DNA from: Actinosynnema sp. ALI-1.44
GTDB taxonomy: Bacteria > Actinomycetota > Actinomycetes > Mycobacteriales > Pseudonocardiaceae
Direction: 5' to 3'
DNA: 64,000 nucleotides
Assembly: GCF_001984155.1 (NCBI RefSeq)
Contig: NZ_MTQO01000052.1
Span: forward strand, 558,001 to 622,000
Shown: piece after piece, positions 36,385-47,852 of the stretch
How positions within the stretch are numbered: the stretch's first letter is position 1
How the letters are laid out: every line of letters starts with the position of its first letter
Position numbers and translations under genes: made by a program
The notes under the pieces: model-generated
What the model saw: the letters and a program-made list of their open reading frames with translations, nothing else
Told to the model about the DNA's origin: nothing
The model's database searches: none

Positions 36385-36654
36385 ATGGTGCGGGCGCCCC
36401 TGACACCCCAAGAACGGGAACGCGGCAAGCAACTGGCCGCGGTGCTACGAGCGGCACGCGGCTCGATGAGCCTGGTGCAGTTGGCAGGCGAAACAGGCCT
36501 GTCCCACGAGACGTTGCGCAAGATCGAGGCGGGCCGGATTCCGAGCCCCTCGTTCTTCACGGTCGCCGCGATCGCGGACGCGCTGGACATCTCACTGGAC
36601 TACATCGCCTCGTTGTGCGCAGATGTCGGCGAACCGACACAGCTACCGGCATGA
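36385..36654 (+). CDS. XRE-family helix-turn-helix regulator
   Basis: An 89-residue DNA-binding protein. The HTH spans about residues 15-70: QLAAVLRAARGSMSLVQLAGETGLSHETLRKIEAGRIPSPSFFTVAAIADAL. There is no additional sensor domain. ATG at 36385 fits a leaderless promoter directly upstream and gives the common MVRxPLTPxERERG start. It stands between the FAD/Fe-S oxidoreductase and the TROVE-ARPP pair and could control either. No operator was pinned down. Confidence 0.9.
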   Translation: MVRAPLTPQERERGKQLAAVLRAARGSMSLVQLAGETGLSHETLRKIEAGRIPSPSFFTVAAIADALDISLDYIASLCADVGEPTQLPA

Positions 36655-36813
36655 GCACCGGGTAAACCGTTTCGCGTGCGGAGTCCCCGGCTGCTAGGTT
36701 CCTCGGGCCGGCCGTGGGACTCCGGTGCGACTTCCGGAACATGCCTATTCAGCTTTGCTTCGCAGTTCGTGCCTCCATTCCCCGGCCGGTTTTCCAGGCC
36801 CATGGAGGGGACG

Positions 36814-38208
36814 ATGGATCGCGTCGCAGCCGAGGACATGCTCATGTTCGTCAACGCCGCGATCACGTCGAGCGGGCAGCGCGAGTTCCACAACTCGGCG
36901 CAGGAGCAGCATCTGTCGCTCGGGTTCCTGCACGAGTACATGATCGGCAACTACCGTGACCTGTACGCGGCCACCCTGGCGCTGGACATCAACGACCACA
37001 ACGCCGTGCTCATCGCACACAGGCTGCTGGCCACGCCGGGTGAGGCGGATCTGGAGCTGCGGCGCCTCGAAGGTGAGCTGATCGGCCGCAGGTTGCGCCT
37101 TGTGGCACCGCAACGGGTGTACCGGCTGTTCCGCGGGCTGCGACAGTCGCGTGTGAACAATCGACGGACGCGTGCGATCGTGCGGGACTGGCTGGCGCAC
37201 CGGCCCGACCCGGCCTTCGACGCGGTCAAGTACCGCTCCCAGTTCAAGCACGCGCTGCGGCACGCGCACATCGAGCCCACGCACGACGAGCTGGGCGACT
37301 TCTTGTTCGGCGGTAGAACCCGTTACAACACGCCGATTCTGGAGACGTGGCGGCGGGCGCACTACGAGCAGGCCTCGGTGTACGACCTGCCGTACACGGT
37401 CGCGGAGGGTTTCGCGGCGAAGCACAAGATCGACCGGGCGACGTTCCTCGAGCGCATCGCGCCCATGATGACCCGGGTCGAACAGTTGCGGACGCAGGCA
37501 ACCGCCGAGCGCAACAACGTCGACACCGCCGTGGACCTCGCCAGGATGCCGCTGACGCGGCTGGCGTCGTACGCGCTGTCCTTGCCGTTGTCCGAGCGGA
37601 TCGACCGCCGTACCGAGCTGACAGGGGCGTTGCGGGCCGCGGCGGCACGCGTCGCCGGGCGGGACGCGGGGCGTTGGGGCCGCGTGGCCGCGGTGCTGGA
37701 CGACAGCTTCTCCACGTACGGGTCGGGTCAGAAACGCAGGCGTCCCCTTGCCGTCGCGCTCGCCTGTTCGTTCCTGTTCGAGGCGCTGGCGGACAGCTAC
37801 GTTCCACTGTGGACGTCAGGCCGGACGGACGCGCTGCTGACGTACCCCTACGACGTCACCCCGCTGGGCGAACGCGTTCTCGACGGGCTGGAGCACGGCC
37901 CGGACCGGCTGCTGATCGTGTCGGACGGGTGGGACAACGCCCCGGTCGGGATGGCGGCCGAGGTGCTGAGGGTGTGGCGGACCCGGCTGGACCCGCGGCA
38001 CAAGGTCAGCGTCGTGCACCTCAACCCGGTGTACGACGCGGACACGTTCGACGTGAAACGACTCGGCCACGTGTCGACGGTGGGCGTGCGTGACGCCGAG
38101 GACGTGCCCGCACTGGTGGAGTTCGCCCGGTTCACCGAGGGCCGCACGGGTCTGGCGGAACTGCGGGCGCACTTCGACGACCGGATCACCCGGTTCAAGG
38201 AGGGGTGA
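36814..38208 (+). CDS. TROVE/vWA-domain (Ro60-like) protein
   Basis: A 464-residue protein. The first 280 residues form a helical-repeat region reminiscent of the TROVE ring of Ro60/Rsr (LRQSRVNNRRTRAIVRDWLAHRP, KYRSQFKHALRHAH, DEL GDFLFGG), and the rest is a vWA fold with a MIDAS DDSFS at 296-300, as in Ro60. Ro60 homologues bind Y RNAs and misfolded RNA, often during stress. ATG at 36814 has GGAGG five bases upstream; ATG at 36802 is an alternative. Its stop overlaps the start of the ARPP-like gene (TGATG). No Y-RNA-like locus was identified. The TROVE assignment is from motifs only. Confidence 0.65.
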   Translation: MDRVAAEDMLMFVNAAITSSGQREFHNSAQEQHLSLGFLHEYMIGNYRDLYAATLALDINDHNAVLIAHRLLATPGEADLELRRLEGELIGRRLRLVAPQRVYRLFRGLRQSRVNNRRTRAIVRDWLAHRPDPAFDAVKYRSQFKHALRHAHIEPTHDELGDFLFGGRTRYNTPILETWRRAHYEQASVYDLPYTVAEGFAAKHKIDRATFLERIAPMMTRVEQLRTQATAERNNVDTAVDLARMPLTRLASYALSLPLSERIDRRTELTGALRAAAARVAGRDAGRWGRVAAVLDDSFSTYGSGQKRRRPLAVALACSFLFEALADSYVPLWTSGRTDALLTYPYDVTPLGERVLDGLEHGPDRLLIVSDGWDNAPVGMAAEVLRVWRTRLDPRHKVSVVHLNPVYDADTFDVKRLGHVSTVGVRDAEDVPALVEFARFTEGRTGLAELRAHFDDRITRFKEG

Positions 38209-39362
38209 TGGCCACACTCGACCTCACCGGCCTGTCCGTCCAGCCTGACCAGGTCTGGGGCGGGGTGCGGCTCGTCCCGCTGGTCCGGGACGAGCCGATC
38301 GAGACGCTGCGGCTGCACGCCAAGCTCTACGGCACCGAAGCCGCCTTCGTCGCGGTCGACAAGCGCAGCGCGTACACGGCGTCGTACGTACCGCACGGGT
38401 TCGTGGCGACATGGACGGAAGACGGCGCACCAGCCGCGGCGTACGGCACCGAGATGGTGGACGCGATCGAGCCGTGCTCACCCGTGTGCGTGCCTGTGCG
38501 GTACCACCGCAGGATGGCGCGCCGCACGGACAAGAACCGGTTGCGTTTCCTGCCGATGCACCTGGCGGTCGAGGGCTACCTGGCGCTGCACTTCGGTGGC
38601 CCGGAGATCCTGTGGGAGCAGTGGTCGCAGCGGGCGATCCGCAATGGCCTGTCCCCACGGGCCGAGGAGACGTACACGGGCGCGCAGGTCAACGGCCTGG
38701 CGGACGCGTTGCGGATCTTCGAGATCCACCCGGGTCAGTGCGGTGCGCTGGTCTACGTGGCCGACGCGCTCGCCGCCGCGTTCGTGGTACCGCACCCGGA
38801 CGACTACCGCGCGCTGCACCCCACGCTGATCACCGATCTGTACGGCGAGCTGATCTACCACTACGCCATGCTGACCGCGCCGGTCCCGCAGTTCCACGCG
38901 CGGCTCAGCGACACGCATGTGAACACGCTGGCGGATCTCAGGGCGGCCGTGGCACGGCAACGGTCGGTGTGGCCGCAGTTCCACGACACGATGGTGTCCG
39001 GGCTGCTGGACGCCCAATACAGCATGCGCCGTGTGTACCGCCTCGGTGACTACTCGCTGACCCGGTTCCTGCCCGGTTTCCTGCCCAAGCAGGACAACCA
39101 CATCGGCGAGCTGATCACCGACCAACGGGGCCGGACGGCGTACCTGAAGACGTTCCGCCTGTCGGAGAAGCAGGTCCGCCGCGGTTACCTGCTGCAGCAA
39201 CTCGCGGCGCACGACTGGCACATGCCGAGCACGGCGGAAGCCCTCGGCACGACCGAGGCGCAACTGGGCCTGCGGCTGGAGTCGGCGGGGTTCGGTCACC
39301 TGCTCAACGAGCACACGCTGGCGCACTACCGCGCTACTCAGCGAAAACCTCAGCGGCGATGA
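38208..39362 (+). CDS. ARPP-like protein with C-terminal Fis-type HTH
   Basis: A 384-residue soluble protein. I match it tentatively to the ARPP-2 group of proteins associated with ADP-ribosyl/NAD and RNA-damage systems. The last 50 residues, RRGYLLQQLAAHDWHMPSTAEALGTTEAQLGLRLESAGF, have the spacing of a Fis/HTH_8 helix-turn-helix. The N-terminal 300 residues (VRYHRRMARRTDKNRLRFLPMHLAVEGYLALHFGG) have no catalytic motif I can name. ATG overlaps the TROVE stop and has GGAGGGG before it, so the two are made together. Its 3' end overlaps the convergent STAND gene by 29 bases. Confidence 0.6.
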   Translation: MATLDLTGLSVQPDQVWGGVRLVPLVRDEPIETLRLHAKLYGTEAAFVAVDKRSAYTASYVPHGFVATWTEDGAPAAAYGTEMVDAIEPCSPVCVPVRYHRRMARRTDKNRLRFLPMHLAVEGYLALHFGGPEILWEQWSQRAIRNGLSPRAEETYTGAQVNGLADALRIFEIHPGQCGALVYVADALAAAFVVPHPDDYRALHPTLITDLYGELIYHYAMLTAPVPQFHARLSDTHVNTLADLRAAVARQRSVWPQFHDTMVSGLLDAQYSMRRVYRLGDYSLTRFLPGFLPKQDNHIGELITDQRGRTAYLKTFRLSEKQVRRGYLLQQLAAHDWHMPSTAEALGTTEAQLGLRLESAGFGHLLNEHTLAHYRATQRKPQRR

Positions 39363-42300: not shown

Positions 42301-43107
42301 GGCCGTGAGCAGGCCGAGCAGGTCCTGTTCGGCCGGTGTGCCGGTCAGCAGCCGGGTCAGTTCCAGTTCCATGTCGTCACGGATGACACGGGCCGCGGGC
42401 GACGTGGCGAGCGGCCGGACGATGCCGGGGTCGCGCAAGGGGTGATCGCGGTCGACGTCCTGGGGCACAGGCGGGTTGGGCCGTCCCGCGACGATCACCT
42501 TCATCCCGTCCGGCGGTTTGACCGGCAGCAGCGCCGCGATGCTGTGCGACTGCGCCGTACCCCGGTCCTCGTCGAGGCCGTCGACCACCAGGACGAGGTG
42601 TTTCCCGTCGGCGCGGCACAACTGCGCCGCCTCGGCGAGCATCCCGACCAGGTGGTGCTCCCTGGTGACCTCCGGCAGGAACGTGGGCAGCGGTTCGCCG
42701 AGCAACTCGGCGAGCTGTTCCAGCACCACGTCCACGAACGCGCCGCGGTGGTCCTGACCGGCGAGACGGCCGGTGACGAAGAACGCGACGACACGCACGT
42801 CCGCGGGCGGGTGCAGCACGAACCACGCCATCAACGCGGACTTGCCCGCCCATTTCGTCCCACGCCACCAGGCATACGACTCGGTGCCCGCGCAGAACGC
42901 CGCCAGCTCGGCCAGTTCGCTGTCCCGGCCGATCAGTTCGGGCGGGGCGATCTGCCTGACCTGCTCGCGGTAACGCGACCGGGCACGCGGATAGGAGTAG
43001 ATCGATCCGATGTGCACGCCGCTGTTGGCGTAGCCACCGGACGCCGCTTCCGCCGAGCCTGTCCGGTTCGCGTCGACCCTGCGTGGCAGGCGCTCGTCGT
43101 CAGCCAT
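39334..43107 (-). CDS. STAND NTPase with N-terminal signalling motif and TPR-like solenoid
   Basis: A 1257-residue protein. Residues 11-31 hold a signalling motif, V-x-A-x-R-T-G-x-A-x-A-x(3)-G-x-A-N-S-G-V, followed by HIGSIYSYP. The NTPase has Walker A GTKWAGKS (83-90) and Walker B HLVLVVDGLDED (170-181), then a winged-helix region. From about residue 430 to the end lies an alpha-solenoid of more than ten degenerate repeats of the form ALAxxGDxDRAxxLAxxI, a TPR-like sensing arm. There is no built-in effector domain. The start overlaps the stop of the two-helix membrane gene (ATGGCTGA), whose tail carries two copies of the same motif. I infer a STAND sensor that recruits this membrane partner on activation. 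The C-terminus overlaps the ARPP-like gene. Confidence 0.85.
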   Translation of the reverse strand: MADDERLPRRVDANRTGSAEAASGGYANSGVHIGSIYSYPRARSRYREQVRQIAPPELIGRDSELAELAAFCAGTESYAWWRGTKWAGKSALMAWFVLHPPADVRVVAFFVTGRLAGQDHRGAFVDVVLEQLAELLGEPLPTFLPEVTREHHLVGMLAEAAQLCRADGKHLVLVVDGLDEDRGTAQSHSIAALLPVKPPDGMKVIVAGRPNPPVPQDVDRDHPLRDPGIVRPLATSPAARVIRDDMELELTRLLTGTPAEQDLLGLLTAAAGGLSGADLAELIGSTPSAVRRDLRTVAARSFDTRPGHWRGPDLYLLGHEELQATAVEEFGDARLEAYRERLHAWADACRGRGWPEDSPEYLLRGYFRMLTARGDLPRMVECATDPARQDRLLDLSGGDLDAIAELLACQEAVLAQEDPDLAVMARLAVHRDRLIERNGNIPRHLPALWAMLGQRSRAEALLRMIISLADRGPAAVSLAEALAGQGDADAAESVAASITSVEHRAEARVAMIKPLVRRGEVAAARRIAQLMPTTGWQVEAVVELAESLVDNDSAQAQVLIDAAEQLAKGIAEPYLYAGALIRVAGGVVTTGDCDRAERLLQTIVDLNRGIYGRVRMVDAAVATGQFDVALRWARQISNADERAQAIASIAQAVAKAGDPDTARELADEAETTARHLRDADSPADSAAATVAAMVASRDMDKAKQWLAEISDDHHRDTMLVSAVTAAAESGELDYANKVISSITGSRARAEALVTLAEAHLAGGQAEQARALAVRAEMTTRSTVSVQQWTWAALAVVHAVERAGHLRRAHELALRVAGRAMPEVHRWAAEPTATLAGCLARLGEVDMAGNLIASIPDAEDQVGALLSLDRPHVVRARAEQIASQTKGDKDKVSASLATHLSGYPDVALAVATTIGDDNRRMETLVALLDPSDPEPVIRHITDAYWYTEALVRHPGLVGRYPVDQIPRVEWRFRVYLAAAKSLLDHGENQRARGFLDRARACADEITSPYGRARALLKLVELMNTPRHATLAHGLLRRAETAARFVPHPGRRADMLASVVKTLAARGELDEAEALAMTIDRHGRRAEVLAALVKALVTSGEFDRAQALAVTIQHSGRQAEALLCVVKSHPDPGAAVALAELIPNRDYQVEAFAWLIAHDGRPDLLDRIRALLPQVSSRNTRTRAIRDVLGALTGAPGRAEAFALSIADPADQATAWLALAGQLPGRAAARVLHLRHWREALDVVDRDVLDVIAAEVFAE

Positions 43108-43258
43108 CTACACCGGTGTTCGCCGAACCACCGTCGGACGCGGACGCCTTCCCTGTCCGGTCCGCCCGCACTGTGCCCGTCGCCTTGCTCACGCGCACCC
43201 CGGTGTTGGCGGAGCCGTCACCGCGTGCCGTGGCATCGCCGGTGCGGGACGCCCGGAC
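43015..43258 (-). repeat. three copies of a 21-residue coded motif across two genes
   Basis: Copies lie at 43196-43258 and 43109-43171 (tail of the two-helix membrane protein) and 43015-43077 (start of the STAND NTPase). Shared pattern: V-x-A-x-R-T-G-x-A-x-A-x(3)-G-x-A-N-[ST]-G-V, the same length in each and with no gaps. A longer register (S-x-x-T-G-x-T-V-R-A) repeats before the two membrane-protein copies. Homotypic motifs of this kind are known for amyloid-type signalling between STAND proteins and effectors; assignment to a catalogued motif needs a profile search. Confidence 0.85.
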
Positions 43259-43441
43259 GGTGTTACCGGTGTTGCTTCTGAGCGCCGCCCAGATCGCCAC
43301 ACCGACCGCCGCCACGGCACCCAGCGCCGAGAACACCGTGGCGACGCGGTTGGCCACGTCCCACTGGGCCAGGGCGAACCAGGCACCGAGGCCCGCCACG
43401 ACCAGGCAGGTCAGGATCAGGATCACGCGTCCGGCCCGCAC
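43100..43441 (-). CDS. two-helix membrane protein with duplicated signalling motif
   Basis: A 113-residue protein. Two hydrophobic helices (about residues 6-26 and 34-54) form a hairpin, and the 60-residue tail contains two copies of a 21-residue motif at 62-82 and 91-111. Each copy matches residues 11-31 of the adjacent STAND NTPase without gaps. Twelve of 21 positions are invariant in all three. GTG at 43441 has AGGAGG five bases upstream; the stop overlaps the STAND ATG. The layout (membrane hairpin plus motif tail) suits a pore-forming or membrane-perturbing effector, or an anchor, engaged by the STAND protein. No known family recognised. Confidence 0.8.
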   Translation of the reverse strand: MRAGRVILILTCLVVAGLGAWFALAQWDVANRVATVFSALGAVAAVGVAIWAALRSNTGNTVRASRTGDATARGDGSANTGVRVSKATGTVRADRTGKASASDGGSANTGVDG

Positions 43442-43468
43442 ACGCCACCTCCTGTCATTGATCGGCCG

Positions 43469-46400
43469 TCATTCTCTGGCGAGCTGGGCCACTTCGGCCG
43501 CCATCGCCGAGTTTCCCACCTGGACGTAAAGATCGTGCGCGGCCCGCAAAGCGTTGCGGGCCGCCTGTGGGTCGGTGTCCGCGTAGGCCCTGCCGAGGGT
43601 GGTCAGCGCGGTCGCGTGGAACGAGTGCCAGCCCCGGTTGCGCCAGAGCGCGACGGACTCCTCGAGACAGGCGACTGCCGCGGCGTTGTCGCCGTCAGCC
43701 AGTTCGATGCCGCCGAGGATCTCCAGCGCCTCGGCGAGGTGGTGGCTCATGGTGTTGTCACGGCTGAGGGCGACCGCGGCCTCGGCGGTGGGTCGCGCGG
43801 CGGCGTCGCCGATCCGGAAGTACAGGCGCGCCAGGCCGAGCAGGGTGAGCGCCTCGGTGTAACTGTCGCGATAGGACCGTGAGATGGCCAGTGACTCGTC
43901 CAGCATCCGCCTGCTCGCCGCGAAGTCGCCGAGCATGTGGTGGCCGATCCCGGTGAACTGCAACGCGGTGGCCACGCAGCGGGCGTTGCCGAGTTCGCGT
44001 GCGCGGTCGAGCGCGTTGCCCGCGTGCTCCATCGCGGCGGTGAAGTCGCGGTTCTCGAAGTGCGCCAACGCCAGTGAGATCTCGGCTCGCGCCTGGCCGC
44101 CGACGTGACCGGACCGGGTGGCCAGGTCGAGGGCCTCGTTGGCGGCTTCGATCGCGTCGCCGTAGGAGCCGTTCGCGGTCAGCGACCACGAACACATCAG
44201 CGCCGCGTCCGCACTGCCCTGCGGCAACCCCAGTTCGGTGAACATCCGCTTCAGCCGGGTCGCCTCGGTGTACTGACGCGCCATGGCGTCCGTGCTGTCG
44301 GTGGCCCAGGTGGTGACGTCGATGAGGCCACGCAGCATGACCGCCTCGCCCAGCGCGTTGCCGGTTTCCCGGCACAACGCCAGCACCTCGGTGTTGAGCG
44401 CGATCCAGTCGGTGTACATGCCGCGCACGTCGAAGTACTTCTCCATCCGCGCGGCCAGGTCGAACGCCATGTCGGCCATGCCGAGCCGGCAGGCCTGGCG
44501 GACCGCGGCCAGCAACGCGCCGCGTTCGGCGTCGAACCAGTTCACCGCCCACTCCGGCCGCAGGTCCGGTAGGACGTGCCCGGTCGGCGGGCGCGGCGCG
44601 CGGCTGCCGATCGGCGCGAAGCACGGACCGGGCACCGACGCGGCCATCCGCTCGGCCAGGCCGAGCCAGCCGCCGAAGCCGCGGGCCAACGCGCCGGTGC
44701 GGCTTTCCGCCGTCTCCTCCGCCTCGGCCCGTTCGGCGGCGAACAGCCGGACGAGGTCGTGGCACCGGTAGCGGTACTGGCCCGCCGCGTCCGCGCCGGA
44801 TGTGGTCAGCAGGTGCGCGTCCACCAGCGCCTCGGCGTACCCGGTGGCCTCGTCGACCGCGCAGTCCAGCAGCACGGACGGCAGCCACGGCGGGAAGTCC
44901 GGCGTGCTGAACAGGCCGAGCAGCCGCAACAGCCTGCGCGGCTGTTCGGCCAGGCCGCGGTAGCTCAGAACCAGCGAGGCGCGGACAGCCAGGTCACCGA
45001 CGGACAGCTGGTCCAGCCGTCGTCGCTCGTCGCTGAGCATCGCGGCCAGGTGCGCCAGCTTCCACGCGGGCCGCGCGGCCAGTCGCGCGCCCGCGATGCG
45101 CACAGCCAACGGCAGACCGCCGCACAACTCGACGATCTCGGTGGCCACCTGGCGTTCCCGCCTGACGCGGTCCTCGCCGACTATGTGGGTGAACAGGTCG
45201 ACGGCCTCGTCCGCGGCGAACACGTCGAGGTCGATTCGGTGCGCGCCCTCCAGCCCGGCGAGGCCCGCGCGGCTGGTGATCACGACGGCGCAGGTCGGCG
45301 CGCCCGGCAGCAGCGGCCTGACCTGTTCTTCGGACGCGGCGTCGTCCAACAGGATCAGGATCCTGCGGCCGTTGACCAACGTCCGGTACGCCGCGACGCG
45401 TTCGTCTGGATCGACGGGGATGGCGCGTTCCGGAACGCCCAGTGCCCGCAGGAACCTCGCCAGCACATCGGTGGGATCGGCCGGGGTCGCGCTGGCACCG
45501 CGCAAGTTGGCCCATAACTGGCCGTCGGTGTACGAGGCAGCGGCGTTGTGCGCGGCGTACACGCTCAACGCCGTCTTCCCGACACCTCCCATCCCGACGA
45601 TCGTGGTGACGGCGGCCCCCGATCCCCATTCGTGGTTCAAATGCTTGAACAGCAGGGCGGTCTCGGCCATCCGGCCGGTGAAGTCGGGAACGCTCGGCGG
45701 AAGCAGCGCGGGCGCCGACCACGCCCGCGCCTGTTCACCCGGCGCGGCAGGTGGCCGCACGGGCTCGGCGGCCGCGAGCAGCCCGGGGTCGGCGTCCAGG
45801 ATGCGCTGGTAGAGGCCCTGTAACTGCGGGCTCGGCGGCACACCCAATTCGTCGGCCAGCCTGGTGCGCGTGCGCTCGTAGCACGTCAGCGCCTCGGCCT
45901 GGCGGCCGTGCCGGTACAGCGCCAGCATCAGTTGTCCCGCAACGCGTTCGTTCATCGGATCGGCTTCGTACGCGCCCGACACCTCGGAAAGCACCTCCGC
46001 GTGCTCGCCGCGGCGCAACCTGAGGTCGCGCAGATCGACCTCGGCGGACTCCCGTTCCCGCAGCAACACGGCACGCTGGTTGTTGAACCAGGGTTTGTCG
46101 ACACCGGCGAACGGTTCACCCCGCCACAGGTCCAACGCCTGGTTGAACAACACGATCGCCCGGTCGGGCTCGTCGGTCGCCCTGGCCTGGCCCAGCAGTT
46201 GCCGGAACCTGTGCAGGTCCACCGTCGCCGGTCTGACCGCGGCCATGTAGCCACCCGGCTGGCGCACGATCCGCATGTCCCGCTCGATCGGCGCCAACGC
46301 CTGCCGCAGCCGGGACACGTACCCGTAGAGCGGGGTCAGGCCGCTGTGCGGGATGTTGTCGCCCCAGATCCGGTCGGCGAGGTTCCCGACCGGCACCAGT

Positions 46401-46522
46401 CGGTCGGCGTCGACGAGCAACGCGGCGAGCACCAGTCGCTGCCGGGCGTGCCCCAGGTCGACCTGGTGGTTGCCGGAGCGTGCCTCGATCGTGCCGAGCA
46501 GCCCGAATTCCACCGCAGTCAC
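43469..46522 (-). CDS. AfsR-type SARP regulator (winged helix, BTAD, NB-ARC, TPR)
   Basis: A complete 1017-residue AfsR-like activator. Winged helix (residues 1-95, FGLLGTIEARSGNHQVDLG and LYGYVSRLRQAL), BTAD (about 100-245, LWRGEPFAGVDKPWF, RERESAEVDLRDLRLRRGEHAEV), NB-ARC ATPase with P-loop GMGGVGKTAL near 315 and LILLDDAASEEQVRPLLPG, then helical repeats of TPR type to the end. Such proteins switch on secondary-metabolite or developmental genes after phosphorylation by Ser/Thr kinases. Start GTG at 46522. It follows the divergent-looking signalling genes by only 27 bases but is read in the same direction; co-expression with the downstream membrane/STAND pair is possible. Confidence 0.92.
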   Translation of the reverse strand: MTAVEFGLLGTIEARSGNHQVDLGHARQRLVLAALLVDADRLVPVGNLADRIWGDNIPHSGLTPLYGYVSRLRQALAPIERDMRIVRQPGGYMAAVRPATVDLHRFRQLLGQARATDEPDRAIVLFNQALDLWRGEPFAGVDKPWFNNQRAVLLRERESAEVDLRDLRLRRGEHAEVLSEVSGAYEADPMNERVAGQLMLALYRHGRQAEALTCYERTRTRLADELGVPPSPQLQGLYQRILDADPGLLAAAEPVRPPAAPGEQARAWSAPALLPPSVPDFTGRMAETALLFKHLNHEWGSGAAVTTIVGMGGVGKTALSVYAAHNAAASYTDGQLWANLRGASATPADPTDVLARFLRALGVPERAIPVDPDERVAAYRTLVNGRRILILLDDAASEEQVRPLLPGAPTCAVVITSRAGLAGLEGAHRIDLDVFAADEAVDLFTHIVGEDRVRRERQVATEIVELCGGLPLAVRIAGARLAARPAWKLAHLAAMLSDERRRLDQLSVGDLAVRASLVLSYRGLAEQPRRLLRLLGLFSTPDFPPWLPSVLLDCAVDEATGYAEALVDAHLLTTSGADAAGQYRYRCHDLVRLFAAERAEAEETAESRTGALARGFGGWLGLAERMAASVPGPCFAPIGSRAPRPPTGHVLPDLRPEWAVNWFDAERGALLAAVRQACRLGMADMAFDLAARMEKYFDVRGMYTDWIALNTEVLALCRETGNALGEAVMLRGLIDVTTWATDSTDAMARQYTEATRLKRMFTELGLPQGSADAALMCSWSLTANGSYGDAIEAANEALDLATRSGHVGGQARAEISLALAHFENRDFTAAMEHAGNALDRARELGNARCVATALQFTGIGHHMLGDFAASRRMLDESLAISRSYRDSYTEALTLLGLARLYFRIGDAAARPTAEAAVALSRDNTMSHHLAEALEILGGIELADGDNAAAVACLEESVALWRNRGWHSFHATALTTLGRAYADTDPQAARNALRAAHDLYVQVGNSAMAAEVAQLARE

Positions 46523-46601
46523 CCTGCCCCCAGTGCGTGCTCCCGCCGTCAGTCGCCCCAGCCTAACTGTCGTGGACCAGACCGTGGCCCGCGCAGATCC
46601 T

Positions 46602-46649
46602 CCTCGTGAGTGTTTGCCGGGGTTCTAACCCCGGCAAACACTCACGAGG
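46602..46649. terminator. perfect 21-pair inverted repeat
   Basis: Arms of 21 bases (46602-46622 and 46629-46649) are exact complements around TTCTAA, of which the outer four also pair. It begins immediately after the stop of the MFS gene and lies 80 bases before the AfsR start. A very stable terminator; the arm starts CCTCGTGAGTGTTTGCC. Confidence 0.85.
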
Positions 46650-47852
46650 TCACTTGTCGACGGGTCGGGACGAGCCGATCTCGGTTTGGCGAGCGGTTCG
46701 GCTCCGGCCGAAGTCACGGGAGGTGGGCACCAGTGCGGCGATGGCCGGTGCGGCGAAGCAGATCACCGCGCAGCCAGCGAGCACCGCGGTGGTCCCGAAG
46801 GCGTCGATCGCCGGTGCGATGAGCGCGAGCCCGAGCGGCGCGAGACCGTACGACAACAGGAAATCCAATGAGGACACGCGGGCGAGCAGGCGCGGTTCGA
46901 CCTCGCGCTGGGTGGCGGTGAACCACGGCACGTTGAACAGTTCGATTCCGATGCCTGTGACCACATAGGCCGCGATGAGCGTCACCGGCCCCAGGTCCGC
47001 GAGCAGGCTCAGCGGCGCGAAGCCGTAACAGGCAAGACCGGCCAACGCCGCCCAGCCCTGCCGTCGGGGCCGCCAGCGGGCGATGATCAACGCTCCGGCC
47101 AGCGCTCCGGCCGTGTACGCGGTCAGCGCCGCCGCGAGGACCGCTTCGGATCCGCTCAGCAGCGGCAACGCCACCCCTGTCGCCGAGTAGCCGGTGAAGA
47201 TCACGGCGGACAGCGCGCCGAGACCGGCGACGAACCACGGGTGCCTGCGTGCTTCCCTGATGCCTTCGGCGAACTCGTCGATCAACCGGGGACGGGTGTC
47301 CTGTGTTACCGGCTTGCCCGCTCCATTGGGCGGCAGGAACGCGGCCACCAGCCACAGCAGACCCGTGCCGACAAGCAACCAGCCGGTGGTCACGACCGTC
47401 GCCAGCAACGCGGTCAGCCCAGGGGCCAGCAACGTTGTCACGCGGACCGAGAGCGTCATGGCCGCGTTGGCCTGCTGACGGCGTTCGACCGCGACCACTT
47501 CGGCCACCAGCGCCTGGAACGCCGGGCGGCACGCGCCCTGGCCGACGCCGACGACAGTCGCCGCCACAGCCATCAGCGGCACGGAACCCATGGCGATCAC
47601 CGGGGACGCGACGGCCGCGATCAAGCCGGACCACAGGACGACGGCACGGCGCGAGTACCGGTCGGCCAGCACTCCGCCGACCGGCACGGCCGCGAGGAAG
47701 CCGATCGTGCGTGTGGCGAGGACCACGCCGAGCGCGGCCGGGCTGAGGGACTTGTCCAGCACCGCGAGGCCGAGGATGAACGGCAACGCCCACGTGGCCA
47801 ACCCGGACGCGGTCATCCCGGTCCACAGCCGGAGAAACGCGGCGTTCGGCAC
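46650..47852 (-). CDS. MFS exporter, probable metallophore efflux
   Basis: A 400-residue permease of about twelve helices with the motif A variant GGVLADRYSRRAVVLWSG and proline/glycine-rich helix 5. It resembles MFS exporters found next to siderophore genes (EntS-like). GTG at 47852 is preferred because AAGGGG lies six bases before it, while an ATG at 47882 would fall inside the Zur-like operator. It is divergent from a metal-chelate binding protein and permease, and shares their operator, so export of the same chelator is the likeliest role. Confidence 0.8.
   Translation of the reverse strand: MPNAAFLRLWTGMTASGLATWALPFILGLAVLDKSLSPAALGVVLATRTIGFLAAVPVGGVLADRYSRRAVVLWSGLIAAVASPVIAMGSVPLMAVAATVVGVGQGACRPAFQALVAEVVAVERRQQANAAMTLSVRVTTLLAPGLTALLATVVTTGWLLVGTGLLWLVAAFLPPNGAGKPVTQDTRPRLIDEFAEGIREARRHPWFVAGLGALSAVIFTGYSATGVALPLLSGSEAVLAAALTAYTAGALAGALIIARWRPRRQGWAALAGLACYGFAPLSLLADLGPVTLIAAYVVTGIGIELFNVPWFTATQREVEPRLLARVSSLDFLLSYGLAPLGLALIAPAIDAFGTTAVLAGCAVICFAAPAIAALVPTSRDFGRSRTARQTEIGSSRPVDK

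Follow-up and report, generated by a model that had tools for sequence, protein, structure and literature searches.

Results

A membrane protein gene overlaps a STAND gene

The window, a stretch of 64,000 nucleotides from the genome of the soil bacterium Actinosynnema sp. ALI-1.44, carries three consecutive genes on its minus strand. The first encodes an AfsR/SARP-like NB-ARC TPR regulator (43469..46522; NCBIfam AfsR model at 1.9e-180, below the cut-off of that model) and the second a two-helix membrane protein of 113 aa (P0001, 43100..43441), the proposed output of a signalling pair, referred to here as the effector. The third encodes a 1257-aa STAND NTPase with TPR repeats (P0002, 39334..43107), the proposed sensor. 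The 113-aa gene has a GTG start with AGGAGG 6 nt upstream, and its ORF shares 8 nt, ATGGCTGA, with that of the STAND gene. A gap of 27 nt lies between the stop of the AfsR-like gene and the start of the 113-aa gene, a simple scan of positions 42900-46800 found no terminator-like site, and the AfsR-like gene is possibly co-transcribed with the pair. As a third component it was considered and rejected: the gene order is kept in a sister species (genome G217), yet no AfsR-like gene stands beside the module in the 16 loci from named genomes described below, among which the sole AfsR-like ORF (at L127) is distant from the module. The regulator is probably outside the module.

On the plus strand, at 36385-39362, lie in a row the genes for an HTH_31 regulator, for a 510-aa protein that Pfam does not recognize and for a protein with an ARPP-2 domain (431 bits). 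This row converges on the STAND gene, with the 3' ends overlapping by 29 nt, and looks like a second conflict-type cassette next to the pair.

Three copies of a 21-residue motif

The effector and the STAND protein share a motif of 21 residues, rich in Gly, Ala and Thr and poor in large hydrophobic residues. Two copies occupy the C-terminal tail of the effector, R1 at residues 62-82 (43196..43258, minus strand) and R2 at residues 91-111 (43109..43171, minus strand), while the third, R0, is found at residues 11-31 of the STAND protein (43015..43077, minus strand). R1 and R2 agree at 15 of the 21 positions, R1 and R0 at 12, R2 and R0 at 13, and all three at 12. The initial annotation had reported these ORF positions, these three copies and the 12 common identities, and recomputation returned the same values throughout.

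Aligned by the Smith-Waterman method, the effector tail and the STAND N-terminus score 63, a value equalled in none of 20,000 shuffles (mean 23.4, sd 4.4, maximum 57); their best ungapped 21-mer identity of 13 was likewise equalled in none of 5,000. A motif profile built from 27 peptides was searched against eight genomes of the genus and gave at least 12 matches at E<=1.4e-5, the next match being at E=0.0032; seven of the 12 are peptides already in the profile and five are new. All 12 fall in the two-helix protein family or in STAND_TPR proteins. The initial annotation had stated that finding the motif mainly in unrelated low-complexity tails would count against it; this distribution was looked for in the genus and was absent. 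On the shuffles and the genus-wide search, a low-complexity or chance origin of the motif was rejected.

Across the phylum, at least 46 of 396 genomes have a motif match at E<=0.05, but only G000 (the genome of the window), G484, G512, G490 and G820 have one below 1e-3, and matches above this value are taken as background. The match in G820, a distant member of the phylum, lies within a 257-aa ORF (L216, G820:C10:215494-215541, E=1.4e-4). Genome and match counts here and below are lower bounds, because only some first-look candidates were scored per genome (five in the STAND scan, 11 in the effector scans of the family and class, up to 22 in the phylum motif search and 150 in the genus motif search).

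Between this genome and the sister species, pN is 0.07, 0.09 and 0.07 in the motif copies and 0.24-0.26 in the effector linkers (two sequences, few sites); purifying selection on the motif copies is suggested.

Features of the effector

The AF2 model of P0001 has helices at residues 3-25 and 33-56, and hydropathy also gives two TM-like segments. In this model, computed with 16 sequences, the tail forms two similar strand triplets at middling confidence (pLDDT 73-83, pTM 0.37): residues 62-65, 70-73 and 77-79 in R1, and residues 91-94, 99-102 and 106-108 in R2. A HET-s-like solenoid would be expected to show such a pair of triplets, which may stack on each other. Each of 19 aligned effectors has two motif copies, 26-31 residues apart. 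Because the N-terminus is positively charged in all 19 relatives, the stretch after helix 2 is positive in 18 and the loop between the helices is neutral in 18, the tail is probably cytoplasmic, on the same side of the membrane as the STAND protein.

Neither Pfam nor NCBIfam holds a significant family for P0001, and no PDB entry matched the AF2 model of the effector. With the effector as query, no match was obtained in a phage collection or in IMG/VR viral contigs, and a phage origin, or a role as phage decoy, was rejected on that ground.

Features of the STAND protein

P0002 matches the PADLOC STAND_TPR model at 6.7e-108, with a best stretch (residues 47-568, profile positions 91-582 of 1114) that leaves the motif tail outside. 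Pfam recognizes TPR_19 (3.3e-8), together with weak NPHP3_N and AAA_22 matches below their cut-offs. The P-loop residues G88 and K89 and the sequence VDGLDED (D176-D181) are invariant across 14 sequences. P-loop, Walker B acidic cluster and C-terminal repeats are thus all present in the sequence of P0002, as expected of a STAND NTPase. The AlphaFold monomer is ordered in the NTPase region and disordered over the first 43 residues, which include the motif. A sequence search of the PDB returned no relatives of the STAND protein.

STAND matches at E<=1e-10 occur in at least 88 of 390 genomes of the family. The genome of the window itself holds, besides P0002, a truncated STAND_TPR gene that retains the motif (L011, G000:C30:83382-83669), the long counterpart of which (L045) is found in the sister species behind what appears, by eye, to be the same aldo-keto reductase-type gene.

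The pairing is conserved across genera

A sample of 111 STAND loci was assembled from the 110 best of 143 matches and the fragment in the genome of the window; the 32 lowest-scoring matches were left out, one of them being an N-terminal piece of L090, which is itself included. Because the query contained the motif, motif-bearing STANDs rank high in this sample. A homologue of the two-helix protein is present at 19 of the 111 loci, always directly upstream and on the same strand. To score the N-termini, a motif model was trained on the effector repeats alone, relatives with helices at least 80% identical being left out. At a threshold of 8 bits, this model recognized a copy in 18 of the 19 effector-neighbour STANDs, against 7 of the 92 others (Fisher 3.6e-14, a P value that ignores kinship). 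R0 of the window scores 23.4 bits, and the single effector-neighbour STAND below the threshold (L031) scores 5.5 bits. With an earlier version of this model, shuffled N-termini reached 8 bits in 3 of 5,550 cases. A tree was drawn from 109 NTPase domains, two of the 111 sequences being too short; it requires 12 changes of the effector label (bootstrap 11-13), of which supported branches force at least four. The tree offers four supported independent pairs, a number at which P<0.05 is unreachable; in these, motif and effector changed in the same direction in an average of 3.3 pairs and in opposite directions in 0.1.

The seven motif-bearing STANDs that have no effector upstream are distributed over five genomes, four of which hold an effector elsewhere. 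For one of the seven, L041, the effector lies just downstream: in G079 a STAND gene, an effector gene and a second STAND gene follow one another (L041, L090). The sister species has one effector and four motif-bearing STANDs, an arrangement that looks like several sensors with one common output. At another locus (L044, G230:C10), an orphan motif-bearing STAND is preceded by an ORF whose end resembles a fusion of the first effector helix with the last effector residues; this ORF is probably a deletion remnant.

From the effector side, an effector alignment (A1) found matches at E<=1e-3 in at least 25 of the 390 family genomes. The strong matches (E<=2.7e-37, the next being at 1.8e-12) number at least 21, in 20 of these genomes, and all 21 lie beside a receptor-type gene, which is a STAND_TPR gene in 19 cases and a membrane sensor gene in two. 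A scan of named genomes, mostly of species already in the family scan, gave 16 effector loci in ten genera (Saccharopolyspora, Amycolatopsis, Crossiella, Streptomyces, Labedaea, Lentzea, Kibdelosporangium, Paractinoplanes, Saccharothrix and Umezawaea). A STAND_TPR gene adjoins the effector in 13 of them and other partners in two, while L135 is a broken remnant. The motif copy of the partner exceeds the threshold at 11 of the 16 loci; at L124, L129, L130 and L136, four of the 15 with an intact effector, it lies below the threshold and was recognized by eye or at a lower score, and no partner copy was found at L135. In a class-wide sample, at least 22 of 394 genomes have an effector match at E<=1e-3, mostly a weak one. 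An effector copy was also found on a mobilizable Streptomyces plasmid; the neighbouring gene is STAND-like and by eye has the motif, and each of the two genes is annotated as 'hypothetical protein'.

Pair-by-pair covariation of the motif copies is weak in these sequences. Among 15 near-independent pairs, R1 is closer to its own R0 than to those of shuffled partners (P=0.033); for R2 the corresponding P is 0.57. At the N/V position of ANTG, receptor and effector were seen by eye to disagree in L051, L130, L264, L023 and L028. At L259, also by eye, both effector copies and the neighbouring 860-aa ORF have a changed motif, TGxV...G[IV]SG.

The same membrane protein adjoins other receptors

At two loci, L131 of Saccharothrix luteola and L154, the gene directly behind the effector encodes a protein of 340 or 354 aa (P0004, P0005); both proteins bear the motif at the N-terminus (8.9 and 13.2 bits), both have what by eye is a single membrane helix, and their additional domain matches no Pfam family. 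This family of membrane sensors occurs in at least 17 of the 390 genomes, and its two motif-bearing members both adjoin an effector. Of the 17 matches, 13 were typed for the class of their N-terminal motif, two more are the motif-bearing members, and L257 and L258 were not typed. A RHIM-like core is present in 11 of the 13, judged by a looser pattern than that used for the STANDs and without a shuffle control, and no two-helix protein was found beside them.

Further effector partners are a NACHT protein of divergent sequence that carries the motif (L130) and an NB-ARC protein (L157); another NB-ARC protein stands beside a weaker effector match (L173, E 9.9e-6), and a multi-helix protein with a motif of 8.6 bits (L170) is tentatively counted as a further membrane sensor partner. 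As judged from these sequences, the two-helix protein recurs while its receptor varies among STAND_TPR, NACHT, NB-ARC and membrane-spanning proteins with an outer domain. The central claim of the initial annotation, that the motif links the STAND to the membrane protein, is well supported by the pairing across genera, by the association of the same membrane protein with other motif-bearing receptors and by the absence from the genus of the distribution that would have counted against it; its interpretation as a whole is partly supported, a role of the module in defence being a possibility. In some distant loci the output head is not constant, because the doubled motif also sits on other heads: at L177:759-1448 (plus strand) an ORF whose head differs has, by eye, the motif twice, and the adjoining 438-aa ORF likewise has two copies of the motif.

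Other motif classes in the N-terminal slot

The RHIM core has been given as G-(I,V)-Q-(I,V)-G, as outlined in PMC7885112. A RHIM-like core occupies the motif slot in 55 of the 111 STANDs (shuffles, 200 rounds: mean 1.1, maximum 5). This hydrophobic-Q-hydrophobic-G core occurs in none of the 19 effector-neighbour STANDs, that of the window included, and a RHIM-type identity of the 21-residue motif was rejected. The two classes are nearly exclusive, occurring together in 2 of the 111 STANDs. In L053, L060 and L041 the N-termini have a RHIM-like core and the motif in tandem (a near form of the motif in L060), and these proteins are possible bridges between two outputs. On a quick tree, P0002 and its sister sequence group with L013, L014 and L098, the N-termini of which are RHIM-like. 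No ORF with a matching motif was found within 900 nt upstream of the RHIM-like STANDs.

Five STANDs form a third class, in which the motif ends in INIQ; upstream of two of them lies an ORF that closes with the matching motif (L047, z 8.6; L069, z 12.5). By eye, the first of these ORFs (177 aa) has a helical look and the second (343 aa) a nucleosidase-like look. On the sequence evidence, the slot is one in which a RHIM-like motif and the 21-residue motif are swapped within two receptor families, the STAND_TPR proteins and the membrane sensors. A tentative but plausible generalization, which we would place a little short of an even bet, is that interchangeable short motifs constitute a plug code in Actinobacteria: unrelated receptors, be they STAND_TPR, NACHT, NB-ARC or non-NLR membrane receptors with an outer domain, would share one N-terminal slot, and the motif chosen would decide the output that is driven.

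Discussion

Proposed mechanism and alternatives

We consider it probable that sensor and output form a module in which the signal passes through homotypic contact between short motifs, that is, a BASS/HET-s-like signalosome with a two-helix membrane output. The basis of this reading is the single copy in the STAND N-terminal tail, which is predicted to be flexible, the two copies in the C-terminal tail of the effector, the conservation of the pairing and the recurrence of the effector with different motif-bearing receptors. In the proposed scheme, ligand binding and NTP-driven oligomerisation would gather the STAND N-termini, the motifs of which would then stack into a beta-arch or solenoid nucleus. 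The double motif of the effector would add onto this nucleus as further rungs, and the hairpins clustered in this way would damage or depolarise the membrane, such that the cell is killed or arrested. Amyloid formation and damage to the membrane are the points at which this scheme is least secure.

Homotypic coupling could also proceed through a finite beta-solenoid or a beta-strand addition complex, in which the STAND would engage membrane proteins in a fixed number and no self-propagating amyloid would form. The Gly/Ala/Thr-rich motif with its few large hydrophobics, the constant two copies in the 19 aligned effectors and the ordered strands that AF2 gives in the monomer tail would all suit such a complex. 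However, one N-terminal copy in the NLR and C-terminal copies in a partner encoded by an adjacent gene is the architecture of amyloid systems, as outlined in PMC7889193, and the slot is also used by a motif of RHIM-like type; we regard the finite complex as rather unlikely, though it deserves to be kept in mind. It is less probable still that the two-helix protein is a mere membrane anchor for the STAND or for a protein with an outer domain, with the output lying elsewhere, for example in the STAND itself. The hairpin is tiny and lacks a significant family match, and its conserved loop is short and neutral, as might be expected of an anchor. Yet it is also paired with receptors (P0004, P0005) that by eye have a membrane helix of their own and need no anchor, and it stays while the receptors vary.

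The most sceptical reading takes the motif copies as a by-product of composition, namely GC-rich tails of Gly, Ala and Thr, and their adjacency as accidental. A low-complexity look and the weak, near-threshold matches of the motif model in other genes are in its favour. Against it stand the 20,000 shuffles, the confinement of all 12 strong genus matches to two families and the difference between 18 of 19 and 7 of 92 STANDs, and within these tests it is refuted.

Significance

If the homotypic reading of the pair is correct, it provides a compact and genetically tractable combination of sensor and output, with a signalling contact of 21 residues and a copy ratio of 1:2 like that of fungal HET-S. 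Natural swaps, in which the same STAND body carries a different motif or the same motif is carried by a different receptor family, represent ready-made domain-exchange experiments. That one membrane protein occurs with different sensors suggests, by analogy with the prion-style switches known from fungal immunity, that signalling relies on a plug-in code. Through the membrane-sensor partners, signalling by short motifs would reach beyond the NLRs. The plug code, if true, would also cover amyloid-type signals that come from outside the cell and involve no NLR, which is an open question in the outline given by PMC7889193.

Comparison with known systems

Among the papers screened by title and the start of the abstract, from which most subscription journals are missing, none was recognized as dealing with a two-helix STAND partner that shares a motif; this is no proof of absence. 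The two-TM effectors of CBASS (PADLOC Effector 2TM) resemble P0001 in being two-helix membrane effectors, but the match at E=0.039 is not significant and the flanking genes encode a STAND and an AfsR-like protein, not a cyclase; this identity was rejected. The RHIM, PP and BASS3 motifs occupy the same N-terminal slot in STAND relatives and membrane sensors and differ from the 21-residue motif in sequence class.

In the HET-S/NWD2 pair of Podospora, NWD2 has a single motif copy. The HET-s layout, as outlined in PMC7889193, comprises a motif of about 21 residues, present as two pseudo-repeats in the membrane-active partner, and in both respects the present pair is similar. Unlike HET-S, the head is a two-helix hairpin rather than a HeLo domain, and we claim no sequence relation between the two.

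The closest architecture is that of the BASS/Bell-NLR amyloid signalosomes of filamentous actinobacteria, in which adjacent or overlapping genes encode an NLR with the motif at its N-terminus and a partner with the motif at its C-terminus, in the outline of PMC7889193; such signalosomes occur in Actinobacteria and Cyanobacteria (outlined in PMC7889193 and PMC8086366), and BASS4 is often repeated on the Bell side, according to the outline in PMC8086366. The same features are found here: one motif, in adjacent and indeed overlapping genes, N-terminal in the STAND and C-terminal in a small membrane-directed partner. The 21-residue motif may prove to be BASS4, one of ten published BASS families; we do not assign it to a family here. 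Motif-matched signalling between an NLR and a membrane partner is, as such, already known. The present system departs from it in two ways: its partner is modelled as a bare two-helix hairpin, whereas Bell, again as outlined in PMC7889193, is a helical bundle with a TM helix, and the two-helix protein is also paired with non-STAND membrane receptors, which is the most novel part of these results.
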